Source of the DNA: Oscillospiraceae bacterium
GTDB lineage: Bacteria; Bacillota; Clostridia; Oscillospirales; Acutalibacteraceae
NCBI GenBank assembly: GCA_015066175.1
Contig: SVOW01000001.1
Span: 124,001 to 188,000, forward strand
Length of the DNA stretch: 64,000 nt
Reading direction: 5' to 3'
Under the pieces are notes generated by a model. The model made no database searches. It saw only the letters and a program-made list of their open reading frames with translations, and was not told the DNA's origin. Shown in pieces: positions 1,662 through 30,065 of the stretch. The first letter of the stretch is position 1, and every line of letters begins with the position of its first letter. The position numbers were made by a program, and so were the translations under genes.

Positions 1662-4600
1662 TTAAAATATGCGTGACTGCACAATAACACCTGTGCCGAC
1701 ACCTACTTTTTCCATAATAAGAGCATCTGTTTCATCAACTAATCCATCATGGTTTACATCCATTGCTTCGAGCTGTGCTGCTGTAAACTGCTCAGGTTCA
1801 AACCAACCGTAAATATACATTTTGGTAACGAAAGAGTCATTTGCATTAACGTCACCATCACCATCTGCATCACCATAAATTATAACAGACAGTTCTCTGT
1901 ATACAGTGCCACTTGAATCGAGCAATACAACTCTATCGCCTGTACCAATCTTTTCATCCTCAGTTTTTTCTGCAGAATTTTCGTCATAAACAGCAATGTT
2001 TGTGTTTTTATACTGCAGGCAAAGGCTCTTTACAGTGTAAGAATTAATTGAAAGATTATATACATAATCATCGTTGATTTTTATAGTTGCATTGTCTTTA
2101 ATCTCGTGATAATCAGCACGAAGAATACTATCGTCATCAACAGTGTATATCGGGTCTATTACGCTGAATTTGCCTGAATATTTACTTACATCATCTTTGG
2201 TTGAAATTACTGGAGTATCAACATAGTATTTTTCATAATCAATGGTAGCAATCTTATCGGGAATAATATATTCCTGTTCAATTTCATTACCATCTTCATC
2301 ATAAACAGGATCAGGTCTCTGAACATTGATAACTTTTCCGTCTGTAAGATAAACAATATTTGATTCATCAACACCTGCACCATCATAAATATTTAATGTG
2401 CCATCTGAATAAATACCAATGTTTGTATTATCAAAAATAGTACCTGCAAAGAAATTGAATGAACCATCAGCTATATAAATAGCACCAACATTAACTGCAT
2501 TTTCAGTAACTTTACCTCCATGCATTTCAATGACACCAACAGATTTAATAGCACTATCAATTTCATCCGCACCAAAAACTACGGTACCGGAATATATTTT
2601 AACTGAACCATCTTTCACGTCAACTATAGCATCTGCTGTTACATTAGAACCATTAATATAAAGCACATCGGTTTCATAATCATCAGCAAGACTACCAAGT
2701 GAAAGTACTGCACCGTTTTCCACACTGAACATAGGACCTTCAAAGCCGGCAGGAACAGAAATAGTATGTGCTGTTCCGTCTGATTCAAATATAATATCGC
2801 TTTTTACAACAACTGTTTCTTTCAAAGTAATATCATCAATCAACTGAATAACTGCCGGATTATCTCCTATATCAGCCATCGCTTCTTCAATAGATGTATA
2901 AGGCACATCATCAGATTCAAAGAAACTTGCTTTGAGAACATATTTAATTTCGCTTGAAGTAAGGTTACCACCTGAATTTATATGCCACTCTGTTTCTGCT
3001 TCCGGAGTAATTGTGAAAAGGTTTGCGTTCATAGCAGTATAATTACCACTTATGATTTTTGCACCTTCATAGTAAGTTTCCGGCGTAACTGTAGCTACGG
3101 GTGAAGCATAAACTGATTTTGCCATTGTTGTGATTGTTTCACCTGTAGGCAGGAAAATATCATTTGATGCATCAATATAACCGCCTGAATAGAAATTAAG
3201 TGTACCTTCAGTGTAAATACCATTACCGCTTACAGTTGCTGTATTATTGTAAACTGAACCATCATATAACATTACTTTACCGTTCTGGGCAATTGAGATT
3301 GCACCGCCGTATGAAGCAGAGTTAAGATAGATTGAACCACCGCGTAAGTTTACAGTGCCGCCACCAACATACAATGCGCCACCTTCACCTGATGTGTTGT
3401 TATGAATATCAGCACCTGTTTCTATATTAACAACACCACCTGCATTAAAGAGTACACCACCTGCAAGTTTAGCGCTGTTGTTTAACATTTCTGCAGCATA
3501 GATATTCAGATCACCTTTATTATAAATAACGCCACCTGCCTGAATAGCTGTGCCATCTTTTATGGTTCCGCCGTAGAAGTTAACTTCGCCCTGGTTATTA
3601 ACGAAACCACCGTTAAGAGCTGTGTTATTGTATGTATTCACATCATAGCAGTTGAATACGCCGCCGTCTTCAACAGTAATAAGAGAACTTGCAAATTTGG
3701 TATTTGTGATATCTGTAACATTATTACCATTTATATCGAGTGCTGCATAGGTAGCATCATCTGCACCAAAATTAAGAACACCACCATCTTTAACAGTAAA
3801 TACCTGCCCGAAATAATGTTTTACTCTTGTGATTGTAATTGTATCATCAGTCGGAATAATTGTCACATCACCCTCAATTACAACTTCTGTTCCAACAGAA
3901 AGGTCTGCTGTGATTTCAACTATACCTGAGCTGGTGCCGATTTTAGCAGCAGCCTCTGTAAGTGTTTTGTAATATGATGTTTCATTTACACCGATAACTT
4001 TACAGATAAGACCTTCCTTAAGATACTGAACGCTTTCCACTGAAATATCATATAAATCATAGTCAGAAGATGAGTTAAAGGTATCAAGCTGAGGATAATT
4101 TACAAAGAATTCTGTATCTGCAGTAGGAATCCAGTATTCATGAGAAAAACCTGAAAGACCTGACATTGCACCTGTGCCTGTCATCTGTTTTGTTCTGAGA
4201 CCTGTTGCATATGTATCTGCAATTGTATATCTTTCTTTATCAAAATATGAGTTGGTAACAGTACCGTTTACAAGATTACCAAGGATTGCATTGATGTTAT
4301 CTGTGCTGCCGTCTATACCAAAAACATTACCAATTGAATATGTACAATCAATGATACCCTGCTGTCTGAGCTGACCGGCAATACCGCCTGCTCTTGATTC
4401 TGATGAAACTGCACCTGTGTTATAACAGTTAGAAACTGTTGCTCCGCCACTAATTCTGCCTGCAATACCACCTGCATAAGTTTCTGTTGCGATAACATTA
4501 CCTGCATTGAAAGAACGTGAAATATTTGCTTCTGTTTCACCAACGACACCGCCTACAGCCTGTTTGCCTGACACATCGTTGAACGAACAACAAGTTTCAA

Positions 4601-20636: not shown

Positions 20637-21269
20637 TTATATAAGTTCATTTAAAATTTTTTCTTTAAATTTTCTTGCAGATTCTTCAGGGTTAGTGCTT
20701 TTCATAATCGCTGAAACAACTGCAATACCTGATATGCCGCTATTCTTAAGGATATCGCAGTTTTCATAATTCAATCCGCCGATAGCACAAACGGGATTTT
20801 TTACATTCTTGCATACATCTTTTAAAACAGAAATAGGTGTTAAAACAGTTTTCACCTTTGTGGTAGTCGGAAAAATTGCACCTGTACCGATATAATCTGC
20901 ACCGTCTTTTTCAGCATTTAATGCAGCTTCTACTGTTTTTGCTGTTGCACCGATGATTTTGTTTTTACCCATCAGTTTTCTGGCAACAGAAATGGGCATA
21001 TCTTCATTGCCAAGATGCACACCTGCTGCATCAGATGCAAGAGCAATATCAACGCGGTCGTCAATAATTAACGGCACTTCGTATTTATCAGTAATCTTTT
21101 TAACTTCAAGTGCAAGCTGAAGATATTCACGGGTTGATTTATTTTTTTCGCGAAGTTGAACAATTGTAGCACCACCTTTGCAGGCAAAATCGACTATTTT
21201 CAAAAATTCATCCGTAGTAAATCCTGTGCTATCGGTAATAAAATACAATGAAATATCAGGCTTATTCAT
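20637..21269 (-). CDS. thiE: Thiamine-phosphate synthase
   Basis: Joins hydroxymethylpyrimidine diphosphate and hydroxyethylthiazole phosphate to thiamine phosphate. The 210-aa TIM barrel shows GGATIVQLREKNKSTREYL (~30-48), DDRVDIALASDAAGVHLG (~71-88), the diphosphate-binding TGAIFPTTTK and the final VCAIGGLN and AVVSAIM segments. Last gene of the thiW-thiM-thiE group; its ATG overlaps thiM by 8 bases, so the two are translationally coupled. Completes thiazole/pyrimidine salvage with thiD and thiM. Confidence 0.95.
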   Translation of the reverse strand: MNKPDISLYFITDSTGFTTDEFLKIVDFACKGGATIVQLREKNKSTREYLQLALEVKKITDKYEVPLIIDDRVDIALASDAAGVHLGNEDMPISVARKLMGKNKIIGATAKTVEAALNAEKDGADYIGTGAIFPTTTKVKTVLTPISVLKDVCKNVKNPVCAIGGLNYENCDILKNSGISGIAVVSAIMKSTNPEESARKFKEKILNELI

Positions 21270-22068
21270 AAATTTTCACCCTTCCGTTTTCTGTTATGTA
21301 TTCACTGTTCATCAAAAACATAGCATCAATTATTGAATTATGAAAAGAAGTTATGCTATTTTCTTTTTTAAACTTTTCTTCAGCTTTTTCCCCTGCAAGC
21401 CCCATTAAAACCGCTGAATTCACAGCCGACAAAAACGGTTCATTTTTCGCAAGAAGAACTGCACATACTACATTGAGCATACATCCTGTGCCGGTCACAA
21501 AAGGCATAAGAGAACTTCCGTTTTTTATTAATGCTGTTTTACTGCCGTCTGAAACACAATCTGTTTTACCGCTTATCAAAACAACTGACGATAGCGTTTC
21601 TGAGGCTTTTTTGCAAAGACAAACGAGTTCCTTATCTGAACTTTCACTTTGAGAATCAACACCTTTGGTGCAAAAATCAAATCCACACAAAGCTCTGATT
21701 TCAGCTTCATTGCCTTTTATAACCGATGGATTGTATCTATCAATATATTCTTTTGCAAAATCTAGCCTTAACTCACTGCATGCTACTCCCACAACATCAA
21801 TCACAGACGGAATTTTATTTTCTTTTGCGATTTTTCCTGAAATCATTATCGATTTCATTCTGCTGTCAGAAATATTACCGAGATTAACAGCAAGGGCTTC
21901 TGACATTTTTGTGATTTCACTTACTTCTTTCGGATGCTCTGCCATTATTGGTTTTGCCCCTAAAGCTAACACCACATTAGCGCAATCATTTATTGAAATA
22001 TGGTTCGTTATGCAATGAATTAGTGGTTTTTCACATCTTATTTCGTCAAGATTTACTTTTAGACTCAT
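21262..22068 (-). CDS. thiM: Hydroxyethylthiazole kinase
   Basis: Phosphorylates the thiazole alcohol with ATP so that ThiE can use it. The 268-aa ribokinase-like protein begins with PLIHCITNHISINDCANVVLALGAKPIMAEHPKEV, the typical ThiM N-terminus. It carries NPSVIKGNEAEI and the catalytic anion-hole FVTGTGCMLNVVC. It overlaps both thiW (by 23 bases) and thiE (by 8 bases), a tightly coupled salvage operon. GGAG lies 9 bases upstream of the ATG. Confidence 0.95.
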   Translation of the reverse strand: MSLKVNLDEIRCEKPLIHCITNHISINDCANVVLALGAKPIMAEHPKEVSEITKMSEALAVNLGNISDSRMKSIMISGKIAKENKIPSVIDVVGVACSELRLDFAKEYIDRYNPSVIKGNEAEIRALCGFDFCTKGVDSQSESSDKELVCLCKKASETLSSVVLISGKTDCVSDGSKTALIKNGSSLMPFVTGTGCMLNVVCAVLLAKNEPFLSAVNSAVLMGLAGEKAEEKFKKENSITSFHNSIIDAMFLMNSEYITENGRVKIYE

Positions 22069-22582
22069 ATGATTTTACTCCAAGCATTTTTTGAAATTTA
22101 GAAAGCAGATTGCTTTTATTCATCGATATAAGTAACACAAATGCAATTGAACCGCCAATAAGCGTTCCTCCGATGAAAGACGGAACATAAAAAAGCCATG
22201 TAAGATCTGTTCTGCCCCAGAAATATGTCATTACCGGATAACTTAAAATTGCGCCTATAATTCCAGTTCCGAAAATTTCACCAATTACCGCACATATGAT
22301 TTTCCCTTTAGACATTCTGTAAAAAAGACCTGAAAGGAACGCACCGAAAACAGCACCTGTCAGCGCAATAGGCGGAATGCCCATAAAAATCATTCTGATA
22401 ATTCCTATAAGCACCGCACACAAAAGCGAGTACCATGGCCCCATAAACACAGAACACACAATATTAATCAGGTGTGCCATAGGACACATACCTTCTACGC
22501 GTAATATCGGCGAAATTACCACACCGATTGCAACGAACATGGACAGCATAATCATACGGATAAGTTTGTTTTTGTTTTTCAT
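22046..22582 (-). CDS. thiW: ThiW, predicted thiazole-specific S component of an ECF transporter
   Basis: A 178-aa membrane protein with about five hydrophobic segments, matching the ThiW family: MAHLINIVCSVFMGPWYSLLCAV, then GAVFGAFLSGLFYR and GEIFGTGIIGAILSYPVM. ThiW is predicted to bind hydroxyethylthiazole and use a shared EcfA/EcfT energising module, which is not in the window. It is directly followed by thiazole kinase, matching import then phosphorylation. The start is set by AAAGGGAGAAA 3 bases upstream. This SD can pair with an upstream CTCCC segment (see the leader feature). Confidence 0.9.
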   Translation of the reverse strand: MKNKNKLIRMIMLSMFVAIGVVISPILRVEGMCPMAHLINIVCSVFMGPWYSLLCAVLIGIIRMIFMGIPPIALTGAVFGAFLSGLFYRMSKGKIICAVIGEIFGTGIIGAILSYPVMTYFWGRTDLTWLFYVPSFIGGTLIGGSIAFVLLISMNKSNLLSKFQKMLGVKSYESKSKS

Positions 22583-22745
22583 TTTAATTTCTCCCTTTAT
22601 ATTATTTTGCTTACGGGAGAAAACTGCGAGTAGATACAGAAATCTTCCGTAAACATCGGTCGATACTCAAAAGTATCCTCTCACTCCGAAACACGGATTC
22701 CCTCGCAGAAATTACAATGAATGGCGCTCCCCATCCATCTATATA
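22583..22745 (-). promoter_or_regulatory. Structured thiW leader, candidate riboswitch of unassigned class
   Basis: On the minus strand a 7-bp outer stem CTGCGAG/CTCGCAG (plus-strand 22702-22708 and 22624-22630) encloses three hairpins: TCCG/CGGA, GATACT/AGTATC and TACGGA/TCTGTA. Together they form a possible four-way junction of 85 bases. A GGGGAGCGCC element lies 5' of it. Immediately 3' is TTTCTCCC (22615-22622), which can pair with the thiW ribosome binding site GGGAGAAA (22588-22595), or alternatively with the upstream GGGGAG. This is the layout of a translational switch. It lacks the conserved 3' half of the TPP aptamer. Structure was read by eye; the ligand is unknown. Confidence 0.55.
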
Positions 22746-22763
22746 TCATCAGGCTTTCACCTG

Positions 22764-23561
22764 TTATTTTATAAATCTACTATTAATTGAATTACCATGG
22801 TGCAATGGTCCTGACCCATTTCCAAGATTTAGAAAAGCAGACAGCGAATCAGAAATATATTCTTTAGCTATTTTTATTGAATCATACATTTTATAACCTT
22901 TTGCAAGATTTGAAGCTATTGCACTAGAAAGTGTACACCCTGTACCATGAGTATTTGCATTATCAATTCTCTTTCCTGAAAACCAGACAAATGATTTACC
23001 ATTAAAATACAAGTCATTCGCATCATTAATTCTATGACCGCCTTTTAAAAGAACATCACAACAATAATTTTCGTAAATTCTTTTTGCACTTTCAACCATA
23101 TCTTCTGATGAATCAATTTTCATACCGGACAATACCTCTGCTTCCGGGATATTCGGTGTTACTAAATCACAAATCGGTAAAAGATATTCTTTTATTGCTT
23201 CAACAGCATCAGAAGATGATAAATCAGCTCCACTTGTAGACACCATTACGGGGTCAAGAACTATATTTTTTGCCTTATAATTTTTTAATTTACCAGAAAT
23301 TACTTTTACCATTTCTGAATTGCTTATCATACCGATTTTCACAGCATCAGGAAAAATATCTTCAAACACTGCTTCAATCTGTGCTGACAAAAAGTCGCAG
23401 GTGACCTCTTGCATAGCAATTACTTTTGTTGTGTTTTGTGCAGTAAGTGATGTAATTACACTCATTGCGTAAACGCCATTGGCAAGTGCGGTTTTTATGT
23501 CAGCCTGAATGCCTGCACCGCCTGATGAATCACTGCCTGCAATTGATAACATGATTTTCAT
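22764..23561 (-). CDS. thiD: Hydroxymethylpyrimidine/phosphomethylpyrimidine kinase
   Basis: Phosphorylates HMP and HMP-phosphate to HMP-diphosphate for ThiE. The 265-aa ribokinase fold starts with IAGSDSSGGAGIQADIKT, has LDPVMVSTSGADL (~101-113) and TPNIPEAEVL, and the anion hole HGTGCTLSSAIASNLAKG. It is the first gene after a TPP riboswitch, so it is probably shut off by thiamine diphosphate. 181 bases separate it from thiW and hold the second leader. Confidence 0.95.
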   Translation of the reverse strand: MKIMLSIAGSDSSGGAGIQADIKTALANGVYAMSVITSLTAQNTTKVIAMQEVTCDFLSAQIEAVFEDIFPDAVKIGMISNSEMVKVISGKLKNYKAKNIVLDPVMVSTSGADLSSSDAVEAIKEYLLPICDLVTPNIPEAEVLSGMKIDSSEDMVESAKRIYENYCCDVLLKGGHRINDANDLYFNGKSFVWFSGKRIDNANTHGTGCTLSSAIASNLAKGYKMYDSIKIAKEYISDSLSAFLNLGNGSGPLHHGNSINSRFIK

Positions 23562-23628: not shown

Positions 23629-23634
23629 TGAGAA

Positions 23635-23722
23635 CATTATCGCGCTTTCCCTACGATGGTATTAACCAACAGGTTCAAAGGGTCAGGTTTTAACCTTCTC
23701 AACTCCGAGGAGTCCCCCTAGC
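23635..23722 (-). promoter_or_regulatory. TPP riboswitch upstream of thiD
   Basis: The minus strand shows the TPP aptamer core: TAGGGGGACTCC, then TTGAGA (TGAGA of the P3 side), then ACCCTTTGAACCTG and GGTTAATACCATCGTAGGGA. A strong terminator follows. The expected control is premature termination when thiamine diphosphate is abundant. Confidence 0.93.
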
Positions 23723-23729
23723 AAAAGTT

Positions 23730-23800: not shown

Positions 23801-26800
23801 TTAGAATGCCATATTAGCAATATTAATGATTACTGTAAGGTCGATAGCATCAAGCCAACCATCTTCACAAAGATCAATTGCTGCCATGATGTATTCTGTT
23901 TCAGGTTCTTCAAATTCATTGATAAGAGATGCAACGATTGTTACGTCAATAGCATCAACGAATGCGTCGCCGTTAGCATCAGCATCAACAATGATTACAT
24001 ATTCTTTAACAAGTTCTTCACCATCAAAGTGCTGTACAAGAGTACCTGTACCGTAACCATTCACTGTAGGTGTTACAACGATTGATGTATTTTTACCATA
24101 AACATCAAACTGACCTATGATTTCATCTTCTGACCAGATATCTGTAAGACCTCTGATATATGCTTTATCATTGATTGTTGCAACAGAATCATCTTTAAGA
24201 ACGATTGTTGAAACGAAATCAAGTTCTTCAGTTGCTGCAACGATTGCATCTGCATAACCGTTAACTGTTTCTTGTTTTGTAATATCAAGAGTATAGTCAA
24301 CTGCATCTATTGCATTGTTAAGAGAATCAACAGTTGCCTGATCAAGTTCAATGCCTGTAGCCTGCATTTCAGCAAGTTTTTCTGCTGCTGCAGTTTTTGC
24401 ATCTTCTACTGATGTGTAATCAGCTGCTTTAGCCTCAAGGTTTTTAATTGCTTCGCGGATTGCTGCTGCATAGCCATTAACTGTTTCCTGTTCAAGGATA
24501 TTAAGTCCATATACAACATCAGCAATTGCTTCGTCAACAATTTCAAAGTTTGTATAGATGTCTCTGTTAAGAGCATTTGCTTCGCCGATCGCAGCCTCAA
24601 CATCTGAGTAATCTGCATCTACAAATGCTGTTTTGAGAGCTTCAAGTTTTGCATTGTAGTTATCAATTGCTTCGAGTGCTGCTGCATCATCAAGAATTGT
24701 GAGACTGTCAGCATTTGCAATCATATCTTCAATAACTGCGAGAGCTTCTTCATATTCAGCATAAACTTCAGGAATATAATATGTTGAATCATATTCGGGA
24801 GTTACAGCGATTGCTGCTTCAAGATCAGCAAGTTTTGAGAAGGGTTTGAATGCAAGAGCTGCATGTGCATCAATGATATCCTGTGCAAGACCATCAACGA
24901 TATCCTGTTCTGAAAGAATCCAATAATGGTCGCCCCATTCTTCAAGTGCTGCGAGAGCATCTTTATATGCCTGATATGTTCCTTCGTCATAATATTCTTC
25001 GTCTATTGTTTCAAGACTAAGTGCTTCTTCAAGGAGTGAAAGGTCTGCAGGAACATACTGCATATTTTTAAGAGCATAATCAAGGTTATTGATAAGTCTT
25101 AACGCTTCTTCGTCGTTTCTGATATCAAGTTCTTCACCTGAATAGATATATGATTCAAGTTCAATATATGCATTCCAGAAGTTATCAACTGATTCAGGTG
25201 TATATTCTTCATCAGCGCCTTCATAGAACCATGTGCCGAGAGCTTCGTCAGCGAGATCCTGATATGAGAAAGGCTTGAATTCGAGAAGATCGATAGCAGC
25301 ATAGATGTTATCTGCTGCTTCAAGGATTCTGTCGTTATCAGCGATAGTAAGATTTTCTTCGGCGAGAATATCATTACCCGCATCAACTGCTGCCTGATAT
25401 TCTGCATAAGTTTCATCTGTATAGAAGCTTGAATCATATTCAAGTTCTGTATTTAACGCATCTTCAAGGGGAGTTGTGTCAGCACCCTTGAGTTTGAGTT
25501 CTTTACGAAGCTGATTGAGGTTAAAGATAAGATCCATACCTTCAGCGTCATCAAGGAAAGTAGGATTGCTGTTCTTGAATTCTACAAGAGCATCGTAAGC
25601 ATCTGTATATTCTTTATAAGAATCTTCTGTGTAGAAGCTTTCTTCATACTCAAGTTCTGCTGAAAGTGCTGCATCCATCTGAGCTTTGTATGAGAAAGGT
25701 CTGAGTGTAAGACCATCATATGCTTTTATGATTGCATCTGCTGCTGCGTTGATTCTGAAATCATCAGCAATTGTGAGACCGGTTTCAGCAAGAATTGCCT
25801 GACCTTTTGCTACTGCATCTGCATATGCTTCGTAAGTTGCTGCTGTGTAATAGTCTGAAGGATATTCAGGAGCAAGTGCAAGTGCATCTTCAAGAGGTTT
25901 AGTTGTTGCAGGTAAAAGTTCAAGTGCTTTGTAAGCATCGTTGATCGCTTTTGTTGCTGCATCAATTGTGGGCTGATCCTTAATTGTGTATTCACCTTCA
26001 TGAGTAAGAACTTCATTACCTACTGCAACTGCATCTGCGTATGCTTTATAAGAATCAACTGTATAGAATGATTCCTGATAAGCAGGAGTCTGAATAAGAG
26101 CTGCTTTAAGTTCAGTAAAGCTTGCAGGTGAATTGGGGTCTTTAACCTCAATGCTTACAGTTGCTTTTGTAAGATCAATTGCCTGACCTGTTGTGATAAC
26201 ATTATTGCTTACTTCAGCTGTTTCAAAACGACCGATGAAGAGTTTACCTGTCTTATTTGAATCTGTTTTAAGGAAGGCTTCGTCAACCCAGATTCTTGCT
26301 TTATAGTTACCAACAGTGAAGTTTTCTTTAACAAGGAACTGAAGCGTAACAATTTTCTGTGCAGGTTCAAGAATCTGTGCTTCACCGCTGATATTTGAAT
26401 CAGGAGAAAGAGTTACAAGTGCATATTTCCATTGTGCTTTGTCTTCTGCCGTATAGCTTGAGGGATAACCTTTTGCGGGGCTGTTGATGTTACCACCCTG
26501 AGTTGAAGCCTCTGCATAAGATCCTTCAAACACATATGCATCTTTTACTGTCGAACCAACAAGCTGATAGAAGTTAGTATCATAAAGTACGGGGATTGAA
26601 GATGATGCTGCATAATAATCTGTTCCGACAATAACTGAAACAGTAATAATATCACCGGGATATGAAACGCTTCTGTCTGCTGTGATTTCAATTGATGCTT
26701 TATGAATTGCTTCAGCATATGAGAACTGAGCATATGCGGCTCTTACCTGAACTGCTAAAGCTGCAATTTCAGCTTCCTGTTTAACTGTGTATGTACGGTC

Positions 26801-29800
26801 AAGTGAAGCTACAAGTGCTTCGAATTCATCAATACTTTCCTGAGAAATGGGAGGATCATTACGTTTAATAATTGCACGACCTTCTTCTATTGCTTTATCA
26901 ACATCTGAATAGTCACCTGTAAGATATGTAAGACCTGCAATTGCCTCAGTAAGAGAATTATAATAACCAAGAACCAGGTTCTGATCTTTTGCTTTAAGGT
27001 CCCAGTTAATTGACTCCTTAACATGGTTAAGTTCTGAAATTGACATTTTTGTGTACTGGGCTTCGAGAACGTCATCTGAAGGAATTGTTTCAAGAAGCTC
27101 AAGCAATTCCTTATAGTCTGCTTTTGCTTCAACAAGGTCAAGCATTTTTGTTGTGATATCAAAAGCATAACCATTAACTACGTCCTGCTGTTCTTTAGTA
27201 AGATCCCAGTTGATACCATCAATAACAGACTGAACTGCATTGATTGTCTGAGGTGTATAGTGGTTGGGATCAAGTGCCTTAAATCTGTCAATAGCGTCAT
27301 TTACACGAGTATAATCTGCAGGACCGGGTTTAAGGTTGTTGATAGCGTCCTGTATGTCAGAAGCCATTCTGTCAACATCAGCCTGACGGTTAACGCCAAG
27401 TCCATATTCAACTGCCTCAAGTGCTGCATCAAGTACTGCAAGAGTTTCTTTTGACCAATAATTTCTGTTAACAGTGTCAGCTCTTGAAACTGCGATTGTA
27501 ACCTGAGTGTAATCGGCAGGTTCAAACTCGAGACTATCCAGAGCATTTCTGATTGCAGCTGCGTAGTTATTAACTTCGTTCTGTTTGTCTACTTTAAGAC
27601 CATATACAACTGCACCGAATGCATCATCAACACGTTTGATTGATTCAGCAGTAATCTGGCTGAGGTCAGTTGCATTGTATTCTTCAAGATATTCTTCAAT
27701 TAAAGAATAATCAGCATCATACATAGCAAGGTTATCAACTGCTGCCTGAACAGAATCTCTCATTGCATCAATTTCATCCTGGCGTGTAATACCGATTGTC
27801 TCATAACCAGCACAAGCTGCTGCTGCATCTTTTGCCGCTTTATATGTTTCGGGGCTGTAATATTCTTCTACAAGATTATCAACAAAATAAAGAAGTGCTT
27901 CAAGTTCTGAGTAATCTGCAGGAAGTTCTATAAGGTCTTCGATAGCCTGATTAATCTGTACAACGTAATTATCAACTACATCCTGTTTGCTTACATTAAA
28001 AGTATAGTCGATGTTTCTGAGAATATCACGAAGATTTGCATAAGAGTCTGGTGTGTAGTTTGATGCAGGATAAGATTGTGCTCTTGTTACCGCATCATTA
28101 ACCGCTGTGTAATCAGCAGGTTTATATTTAAGATTTTCAAGAGCTTCATTAAGTACTGCTGTCATTTCGTCAACTTTTTCCTGCTCTGTAATCTCAACAT
28201 TCCAATCGATTGCGTTCATTGCTGCTTTAACAGCTGAAAAATCGAGATATTTATCGATTTCTGCTTCTGCAGCCTGAGCTCTTGCGTATGCTTCGTTCAA
28301 TTCATCATAATCTGCAAGTCTGTAATCAAGTGCATCAATTGCATCGTAGATTTCTTTTTCCCATTCGTCAACCTGAGGCTGATAAAGAACGCTGAATCCA
28401 AGCTGGATTTTGCCTGTGGGATTTGTTGCTGCATCATAGATTGAAATCGCCTGCATAAGATTTGCATAGCTTTCATCTGTATAAAGACCTTTGTTTTCTT
28501 CATAAGTAAGAGCTTCAGCACGAGCTTCTTCAACAGCTGAATAATCTGCTTCTGCAAGAACAAGACCGTTATAAGCATTTGTAAGTGAAGTGATAGCTGC
28601 GTTAATGTCAGCCTGAGTTGCTCTGGGATTCTGAAGAACTGTCTGAGCACCCAGCATTGCTGCTTCATAAGCAGAGAAACCTGCTGAATAGTACCATGAC
28701 TGGGGATTCACACCTTTATAAGCTGCTGTTGTAAGAGGTGATTCCGGTGTATAATTGTGGAGAATATCATTGATTAATGCACGAAGTTCACCTTTATTAA
28801 CTGTGTGAATTCTGAGACCTACAGGGAAACTTGTGGCATTAGCTGCACCCTGATAAGAAGACTTAAGATTAGTAATAATTGTATACTCTGCACCGTCAAT
28901 AATATTAGAGCCTGTGAAAGCTGTTACATACTGGTCTGCTACCGCCATAACACCTTTCTGTGGCACTGTACCGAGTTCCTGGTCACCTGTACCCTGAAGG
29001 CTTCCGTCAGCCTGAACATTACCCTTTGTTACACCGACACTTTCAAGAAGCTGTGTTTCATTACCACCGATTTTTTCCACCTTTGTAACTGCATAACGGA
29101 GATTTAAATCAGAGAATGAATCTGTAACACTTGTGTCAACATAAACATCGGCATAAGGACGTCGGTCGTTTATGTTATATCTGAGAGTTTCGTCTTCAGT
29201 TCTTGTGCTGCTGTCTCTCATAACACTGTATGTTGCATAGTCAGCAGAAGATCTGAGAACAAAAGTGTTAGAGCTTGCATTATAGTAACCACGGTTGTCT
29301 GTACTGCTTGTTGTGAAAGATTCAAGACTACCGTATGTATTTATACCGATAACACGAGTAGCTGCAGACACACCTGCATAATAGTTTGCACCCCAACCGA
29401 ACAGACCTGATTCATATTTTGATTCAGTTGTTACGTGAGTACCTGCATGCTGAGCAATGCTTTCAACATAAGAATATGCACTGCTTGTGTACTGCTTGCC
29501 ATTGTAGTTGTATGTGATTTTAAATCTTAATGTATCACCTGCGTTAGCTGTACCACTTGCGACAATCCATGTGTATGAATTATCTGCTGAGTTGAATGTA
29601 GGAACACTCATCACAACATTAGATGCTGCTGACTTAGTGTTTACGCAAGTAATCTGAGGAACTTCCTTCGGAAGATCCTTGAAAGTGATTGTAACTGTAG
29701 GATAAGATGCTTCTTCTTTGATGTTACCAACATTTGCGAGTGAGTTATCCTCATAACCGCCGTTCATTGCAGGAATACCTGAAGGTGTTGCAGGAACGAT

Positions 29801-30016
29801 AGTTGTACCCGGCTGGTAAGAATAAAGACCTGAAGCAACTCTGATAACCTGTGTGCTTGTTGCCACAGCACCTGCATCAGGTAAAATTTTTGCTTCGGTT
29901 GCACTGAGAACAGACGCAACTCCATCAGCTGCAAATGTAATAAATCCTGTCTGGAAAACAGACATAAGCATTACCGCTGAAAGAAGCAAACTAATGACTT
30001 TTTTGCTTTTTTTCAT
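23801..30016 (-). CDS. Giant secreted FIVAR-type repeat protein with cohesin-like module and C-terminal dockerin
   Basis: A 2071-aa exported protein. The start is ATG 30016 (GGAGG 8 bases upstream), opening a signal peptide MKKSKKVISLLLSAVML. Residues ~30-430 are a unique, beta-rich region. Residues ~490-1100 hold about nine ~65-aa helical units of the pattern ADYxxVxxA...YTxxSYxxL, typical of FIVAR-like repeats. Residues ~1105-1290 form a beta-sandwich with the pattern of cohesin domains (SVSYPGDIITVSVIVG, YDTNFYQLVGS, IVTLQFLVKE). About nine more helical units follow, with FYTxxSYxxYxDA. The C-terminus is a dockerin (DADANGDAFVDAID and AIDLCEDGWLDAID). No catalytic site is seen. A surface adhesin or scaffold is likely; calling the beta-sandwich a cohesin is inference. 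Confidence 0.85.
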   Translation of the reverse strand: MKKSKKVISLLLSAVMLMSVFQTGFITFAADGVASVLSATEAKILPDAGAVATSTQVIRVASGLYSYQPGTTIVPATPSGIPAMNGGYEDNSLANVGNIKEEASYPTVTITFKDLPKEVPQITCVNTKSAASNVVMSVPTFNSADNSYTWIVASGTANAGDTLRFKITYNYNGKQYTSSAYSYVESIAQHAGTHVTTESKYESGLFGWGANYYAGVSAATRVIGINTYGSLESFTTSSTDNRGYYNASSNTFVLRSSADYATYSVMRDSSTRTEDETLRYNINDRRPYADVYVDTSVTDSFSDLNLRYAVTKVEKIGGNETQLLESVGVTKGNVQADGSLQGTGDQELGTVPQKGVMAVADQYVTAFTGSNIIDGAEYTIITNLKSSYQGAANATSFPVGLRIHTVNKGELRALINDILHNYTPESPLTTAAYKGVNPQSWYYSAGFSAYEAAMLGAQTVLQNPRATQADINAAITSLTNAYNGLVLAEADYSAVEEARAEALTYEENKGLYTDESYANLMQAISIYDAATNPTGKIQLGFSVLYQPQVDEWEKEIYDAIDALDYRLADYDELNEAYARAQAAEAEIDKYLDFSAVKAAMNAIDWNVEITEQEKVDEMTAVLNEALENLKYKPADYTAVNDAVTRAQSYPASNYTPDSYANLRDILRNIDYTFNVSKQDVVDNYVVQINQAIEDLIELPADYSELEALLYFVDNLVEEYYSPETYKAAKDAAAACAGYETIGITRQDEIDAMRDSVQAAVDNLAMYDADYSLIEEYLEEYNATDLSQITAESIKRVDDAFGAVVYGLKVDKQNEVNNYAAAIRNALDSLEFEPADYTQVTIAVSRADTVNRNYWSKETLAVLDAALEAVEYGLGVNRQADVDRMASDIQDAINNLKPGPADYTRVNDAIDRFKALDPNHYTPQTINAVQSVIDGINWDLTKEQQDVVNGYAFDITTKMLDLVEAKADYKELLELLETIPSDDVLEAQYTKMSISELNHVKESINWDLKAKDQNLVLGYYNSLTEAIAGLTYLTGDYSDVDKAIEEGRAIIKRNDPPISQESIDEFEALVASLDRTYTVKQEAEIAALAVQVRAAYAQFSYAEAIHKASIEITADRSVSYPGDIITVSVIVGTDYYAASSSIPVLYDTNFYQLVGSTVKDAYVFEGSYAEASTQGGNINSPAKGYPSSYTAEDKAQWKYALVTLSPDSNISGEAQILEPAQKIVTLQFLVKENFTVGNYKARIWVDEAFLKTDSNKTGKLFIGRFETAEVSNNVITTGQAIDLTKATVSIEVKDPNSPASFTELKAALIQTPAYQESFYTVDSYKAYADAVAVGNEVLTHEGEYTIKDQPTIDAATKAINDAYKALELLPATTKPLEDALALAPEYPSDYYTAATYEAYADAVAKGQAILAETGLTIADDFRINAAADAIIKAYDGLTLRPFSYKAQMDAALSAELEYEESFYTEDSYKEYTDAYDALVEFKNSNPTFLDDAEGMDLIFNLNQLRKELKLKGADTTPLEDALNTELEYDSSFYTDETYAEYQAAVDAGNDILAEENLTIADNDRILEAADNIYAAIDLLEFKPFSYQDLADEALGTWFYEGADEEYTPESVDNFWNAYIELESYIYSGEELDIRNDEEALRLINNLDYALKNMQYVPADLSLLEEALSLETIDEEYYDEGTYQAYKDALAALEEWGDHYWILSEQDIVDGLAQDIIDAHAALAFKPFSKLADLEAAIAVTPEYDSTYYIPEVYAEYEEALAVIEDMIANADSLTILDDAAALEAIDNYNAKLEALKTAFVDADYSDVEAAIGEANALNRDIYTNFEIVDEAIADVVYGLNILEQETVNGYAAAIREAIKNLEAKAADYTSVEDAKTAAAEKLAEMQATGIELDQATVDSLNNAIDAVDYTLDITKQETVNGYADAIVAATEELDFVSTIVLKDDSVATINDKAYIRGLTDIWSEDEIIGQFDVYGKNTSIVVTPTVNGYGTGTLVQHFDGEELVKEYVIIVDADANGDAFVDAIDVTIVASLINEFEEPETEYIMAAIDLCEDGWLDAIDLTVIINIANMAF

Positions 30017-30065
30017 AGCTGATACCTCCACTTGTAATCAAACTAAGATATAGTTATCCACTAAA

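Follow-up and report, generated by a model that had tools for sequence, protein, structure and literature searches.

The leader of the thiazole transporter gene thiW in a 64,000-nucleotide stretch of an Oscillospiraceae genome (assembly GCA_015066175.1, contig SVOW01000001.1, positions 124,001 to 188,000; here the window, numbered from its first letter) is a conserved, structured RNA motif distinct from the thiamin pyrophosphate (TPP) riboswitch that it adjoins. Judged by alignment and covariance-model matches, the half of the TPP aptamer that binds the pyrimidine is the homologue of the motif core, GGGA-[P3]-UGAGAG-[P3a]-CGACC. We consider it probable that such leaders form a widespread riboswitch class of new specificity, one that discarded the pyrophosphate half of the TPP aptamer and kept the pyrimidine pocket. 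Its members would sense hydroxymethylpyrimidine (HMP) phosphate or pyrophosphate (HMP-P or HMP-PP), or else thiamin or thiamin monophosphate (TMP), and would gate thiazole salvage behind a TPP riboswitch. The TPP riboswitch is the best-studied and most widespread riboswitch and has two separate pockets. If our reading is right, a natural RNA that kept one TPP pocket and dropped the other would show riboswitch specificity evolving by halves, and would let the binding of the pyrimidine pocket be tested cleanly, by itself. Thiamin control in gut Firmicutes, many of them unable to make thiazole, would also gain a second input.

On the minus strand of the window, which carries all its features described here, the order is TPP riboswitch, thiD, the leader of about 180 nt, thiW, thiM and thiE. 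The leader (22588-22763, intergenic between thiD and thiW) matches no Rfam 15 family at the gathering score. A search of 261 bases at E up to 5 also matched no family to it, the TPP riboswitch family RF00059 included; at this relaxed threshold only a weak, unrelated frameshift element inside thiW appeared. This agrees with the original prediction, which had been made from the window alone and placed the leader in no known class. Folded as 181 nt, the leader reaches -55 kcal/mol (z = -3.57), and none of 200 shuffles was equally stable. The predicted four-way junction lies where it had been drawn, closed by a stem, P1, whose strands CTGCGAG (22708-22702) and CTCGCAG (22630-22624) enclose 85 nt.

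Among thiW loci of the same GTDB family, which were gathered by the gene without regard to the leader, 23 have the same leader. Given 22 longer leaders from relatives and no structure, RNAalifold recovered P1, the helices P3 and P3a, and a hairpin upstream of P1 (22716-22739 in the window) with a conserved GGAGCG loop (22730-22725). Compensatory change was found in 15 of the 26 pairs, and in the upstream hairpin 8 of 9 pairs had double changes. Double-change cells numbered 71 against 24.2 in shuffled alignments, and all five measures lay above all 500 shuffles. The inner helices were tested with 52 core sequences, in which 99.7% of cells were paired and double-change cells numbered 112 (35.7 when shuffled), the changes falling in P3 and P3a. 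P1 strands fit their own partners better than swapped ones. The covariation among relatives' thiW leaders that had been proposed as a check is thus present. Between CGACCG and the 3' strand of P1, leaders range from those with a long hairpin to those with hardly any sequence (L061, L087), and a fourth helix is therefore dispensable. In L030, L036 and L037 an inserted hairpin lengthens P3a, the loop of which therefore tolerates insertions. A pseudoknot between the GGAGCG loop and a CGUUUUCUC element was considered but not adopted. Many leaders have the two sequences in complementary form, yet covariation lends no support, since the loop hardly changes and L158, with a GGAGCU loop, keeps the same CGUUUUCUC element.

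The relation to the TPP aptamer became apparent with a covariance model, R1, built from the new motif only. R1 matches the TPP riboswitch arm in all 13 loci that have an Rfam-confirmed TPP riboswitch (E from 4e-11 to 8e-3), and the best other match in the same search of relatives has an E of 0.07. The original prediction had matched the leader to no TPP consensus feature and took it to be different, a view that these matches do not support. The aligned part reads GGGA-[P3]-UGAGA(G)-[P3a]-GACC, and in L035 the tandem TPP riboswitch and motif have GGGAGCCCGUGUUUCGGG in common, 18 identical bases. The TPP riboswitch holds the pyrimidine in its P2/P3 arm and the pyrophosphate in P4/P5 (PMC12632268). 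In the window, the conserved core (22656-22713) matches R1 with 73.7 bits. By alignment, the invariant GGGA (22699-22702) forms the 5' side of a TPP-like internal loop and GACCG (22657-22661) its 3' side. Between them lie the P3 hairpin, UCCG-UGUUU-CGGA (22685-22697), whose basal pair covaries among GC, CG and UA; UGAGAG (22678-22683), the counterpart of UGAGA in the TPP pyrimidine pocket; and the P3a hairpin, GAUAC-UUUUGA-GUAUC (22662-22677), with double changes in four of five pairs.

By the features tested, the motif appears TPP-derived and yet is not a TPP riboswitch. Likenesses to RF00059 are the pyrimidine arm, the P1-closed layout with a further arm, the thiamin-pathway genes and the side-by-side occurrence. 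Unlike RF00059, the motif lacks the P4/P5 pyrophosphate arm with its GAUAAUGCC and CGUAGGGA signatures, has the extra GGAGCG hairpin upstream and gives no Rfam model match. The GAUAAUGCC signature is absent from the window and from 127 of 128 motif downstream regions; in the sole exception, L085, it belongs to a separate, complete TPP riboswitch. The place of the pyrophosphate arm is taken in the window by a P4 region (22631-22656) that includes UUUACGGAAGA (22653-22643). The pair beside UGAGA, which is G-C in 138 of 144 TPP riboswitches, is A/G (104 copies), G/U (17), C/U (3), G/A (3) or A/U (1) in the motif, and A22698/G22684 in the window. G-C occurs in 0 of these 128 copies; the scan pattern barred C at one position of the pair, but in the sets chosen by gene and by model the count is likewise 0 of 58. 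An order-wide R1 scan separates two groups: the motif scores at least 59 bits, whereas the ten weaker matches re-examined (35-45 bits) were all TPP riboswitches, eight above the Rfam threshold and two just below.

A DNA similarity search alone found the motif in only one congener, at 98%, and the motif was not found in a DNA similarity search of plasmids. A pattern scan over 85,462 species genomes returned at least 119 stretches, three of which (L095, L133 and L135, in other phyla) were rejected as chance matches. At least 163 distinct occurrences were found, spread over Clostridia, Negativicutes and a handful of further Firmicutes; named carriers include Oscillospiraceae, Ruminococcaceae, Lachnospiraceae, Veillonella, Acidaminococcus, Anaerovibrio, Megasphaera, Floccifex and one Fructobacillus contig. 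With R1 at 59 bits or more, about 37 of 394 genomes sampled in the order carry the motif, as do 6 of 399 genomes of the phylum. The frequency within the order is high enough to merit an Rfam family.

The association with thiazole uptake is close. Among the 163 occurrences the first gene downstream is thiW in 142, thiM in 3 and a PhnD-type gene in 7 (plus L057, where the sequence ends early); 11 have too little sequence. Initial open reading frame calls had left 21 first genes unidentified, and a frame-independent hidden Markov model search assigned these to thiW, except at PhnD-type loci and a few contig ends. A TPP signature lies within 400 nt upstream of the motif in 80 of 122 copies. ThiC is present in 20 of 37 carriers and full-length ThiG in only 3, the remaining ThiG matches being short (19 to 34 bits); most carriers therefore depend on imported thiazole. 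The genome of the window has neither ThiC nor ThiG, and the one further TPP riboswitch in it lies before a gene that, by inspection of its sequence, is ThiT-like.

The first gene of the PhnD-type loci (L054, L057, L099, L114, L124, L147, L207 and L211) encodes a substrate-binding protein of the phosphate/phosphonate family; longer loci continue with PhnC-type and double PhnE-type genes. No TPP riboswitch stands directly upstream where this was checked. The binding proteins give weak scores against the family of p37/Cypl, a TPP-binding lipoprotein of mycoplasma. A ThiT-like gene lies near L099, and one genome (G791) has both thi-type and PhnD-type copies of the motif. This operon probably encodes an unrecognised thiamin-pathway importer, to which the motif points.

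How the leader would act is suggested by its 3' part. In the window the switching element UUUUCUCCCGUAAG (22610-22623) includes an anti-Shine-Dalgarno segment, TTTCTCCC (22622-22615), which pairs with the thiW Shine-Dalgarno region GGGAGAAA (22595-22588) over 8 bp at -12.7 kcal/mol, just where the original prediction had set this pairing. It had also offered an upstream GGGGAG as the alternative partner of the CTCCC element; that sequence is present (22732-22727), but UUUACGGAAGA pairs better (10 bp, -10.2 kcal/mol) and is the best alternative partner found in the window. The element UUUUCUCCCGUAA can thus pair with UUUACGGAAGA or, via UUUCUCCC, with the thiW Shine-Dalgarno. In the longer leaders, too, an element rich in pyrimidines (typically CCGUUUUCUC), located between P1 and the ribosome binding site, is able to pair with the 3' strand of P4, and the helix so formed would keep the 3' strand of P1 in its loop. 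Pairing is stronger between own partners (-9.83 kcal/mol) than after swapping (-7.61 kcal/mol; 39 of 50, p = 3.5e-5), and L065, L093, L101 and L112 are among the compensatory cases. The two folds of the window leader reach -55.0 and -52.7 kcal/mol, a difference of 2.3 kcal/mol. With the aptamer folded and P1 closed, UUUCUCCC would be free to block the thiW ribosome binding site; in the competing fold the element would pair with UUUACGGAAGA, the 3' strand of P1 would be held in a loop and the ribosome binding site would be freed. In L035, L038 and L039 a long P1 is followed by a U-run, and here the closing stem itself may be the terminator. The blocked Shine-Dalgarno in the P1-closed fold of the window and these three P1/U-run leaders together favour an OFF switch.

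We infer riboswitch function, ligand and direction from this combination of homology, gene association and predicted folds. An ancestral TPP aptamer may have kept its pyrimidine (HMP) half and lost the half that reads pyrophosphate, and the product would usually serve as a second check on thiazole uptake and use after a TPP riboswitch. The retained pyrimidine pocket favours a ligand with the HMP ring, and the missing pyrophosphate arm disfavours TPP. On the whole we lean, by a modest degree, towards the leader of the window being a TPP-derived cis-regulatory RNA, most likely a riboswitch, that tunes thiW-thiM-thiE by binding a non-TPP compound with the HMP ring. As to which compound, our tentative first choice is an OFF switch with thiamin or TMP as natural ligand. 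We rank it slightly ahead of HMP-P or HMP-PP because of the modelled expression platform of the window.

Close behind stands the possibility, by analogy, of an ON switch for HMP-PP (or HMP-P). The thiS motif is an HMP-PP ON riboswitch that occurs before thiW and after TPP riboswitches (PMC6478431, PMC6429828), and the new motif could be a second, structurally unrelated one with the same logic: as in TPP/thiS tandems, thiazole uptake would be turned on when the pyrimidine half awaits its partner and TPP is scarce. Like the thiS motif, ours is associated with thiazole genes, thiW included, and often lies directly downstream of a TPP riboswitch. The frequency of such tandems, the retained pyrimidine pocket and the carriers' inventory of ThiC, which makes HMP, and ThiG all speak for such a switch. 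As described (PMC6478431; the comparison is with this description and not with a covariance model), the thiS motif is a compact hairpin embedded in a terminator, with a conserved loop, a U-run and possibly a pseudoknot, unlike the P1/P3/P3a aptamer and upstream hairpin found here, which lie mostly near the ribosome binding site. Against an ON switch, the folded aptamer of the window coexists with a blocked ribosome binding site, the U-run after P1 in L035, L038 and L039 suggests termination when P1 forms, and the genome of the window is without ThiC.

Several observations weigh against our preferred reading of a TPP-derived riboswitch for an HMP-ring compound, with thiamin or TMP and an OFF response as first choice. 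An HMP-PP ON switch would account no less well than a thiamin OFF switch for the carriers' thiazole auxotrophy and for the near-exclusive link to thiazole genes. When P1 was forced or forbidden in 53 leaders, accessibility of the ribosome site was lower in 7 and higher in 9, and in most relatives the evidence that the element acts as an anti-Shine-Dalgarno is weak beyond base composition. Some Lachnospiraceae copies are without the upstream hairpin. Moreover, R1 searches at E up to 10 miss the TPP riboswitch of the window itself.

Other explanations fare worse. The original prediction proposed that this second, different leader senses another molecule of the pathway, such as hydroxyethylthiazole (HET). 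A distinct conserved leader at thiazole-salvage genes is indeed what we find, and the genes downstream serve almost exclusively thiazole uptake and phosphorylation; an aptamer for HET or its phosphate (HET-P) is nevertheless improbable, since what the motif conserves is the TPP aptamer's pocket for the pyrimidine, which makes HET a less likely ligand than an HMP-ring compound, and thiazole is hardly recognised in TPP riboswitches (PMC12632268). We likewise doubt that the motif is a decayed or minimal TPP riboswitch still sensing TPP, as the homologous arm and frequent adjacency to a TPP riboswitch might suggest: the pyrophosphate arm is wholly absent, the Rfam TPP model finds nothing even at E up to 5, the core is conserved more strictly than decay would allow, and one pocket pair is consistently altered. 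A protein-binding leader or other non-riboswitch attenuator, for which the conserved GGAGCG hairpin loop with no assigned role could speak, is similarly unlikely given an invariant internal loop that is typical of aptamers and homologous to half of a known one.

The motif appears to be uncatalogued. No published description was found in the open-access literature (subscription papers and supplements lay outside the search), and the main text of two large motif surveys (PMC11109978, PMC8632094) has no such thiamin motif. A possible relation is to TPP-riboswitch variants from the Breaker laboratory that, according to the citation of this unpublished work in PMC9481103, favour thiamin or TMP. To the extent that they are described there, these variants resemble the motif in being TPP-derived, of altered specificity and in tandem; the motif itself is not classed as a TPP riboswitch by Rfam.

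The genes downstream of the leader in the window are thiW (22046-22582; S component of a thiazole energy-coupling factor transporter; TIGR02359, 141 bits against a cut-off of 84), thiM (21262-22068; hydroxyethylthiazole kinase; NF006830, 269 bits) and thiE (20637-21269; thiamine phosphate synthase; TIGR00693, 216 bits). Upstream of the leader, thiD occupies 22764-23561 and is preceded by the ordinary TPP riboswitch (23630-23729; RF00059, 69.1 bits). In L085 (around the motif at 381), a TPP riboswitch, the motif and a second, complete TPP riboswitch are stacked before thiW. The Fructobacillus contig (L150; Lactobacillales) carries the motif with thiW, by either transfer or contamination. The phage record MT837340.1, a 7-kb unannotated faecal record and perhaps a bacterial fragment, matches the motif core over 55 nt at 82% identity (3615-3669). 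The window also encodes, directly upstream of the thi operon, a repetitive, secreted-looking protein of 2076 aa (23801-30031) with a dockerin-like C-terminus.
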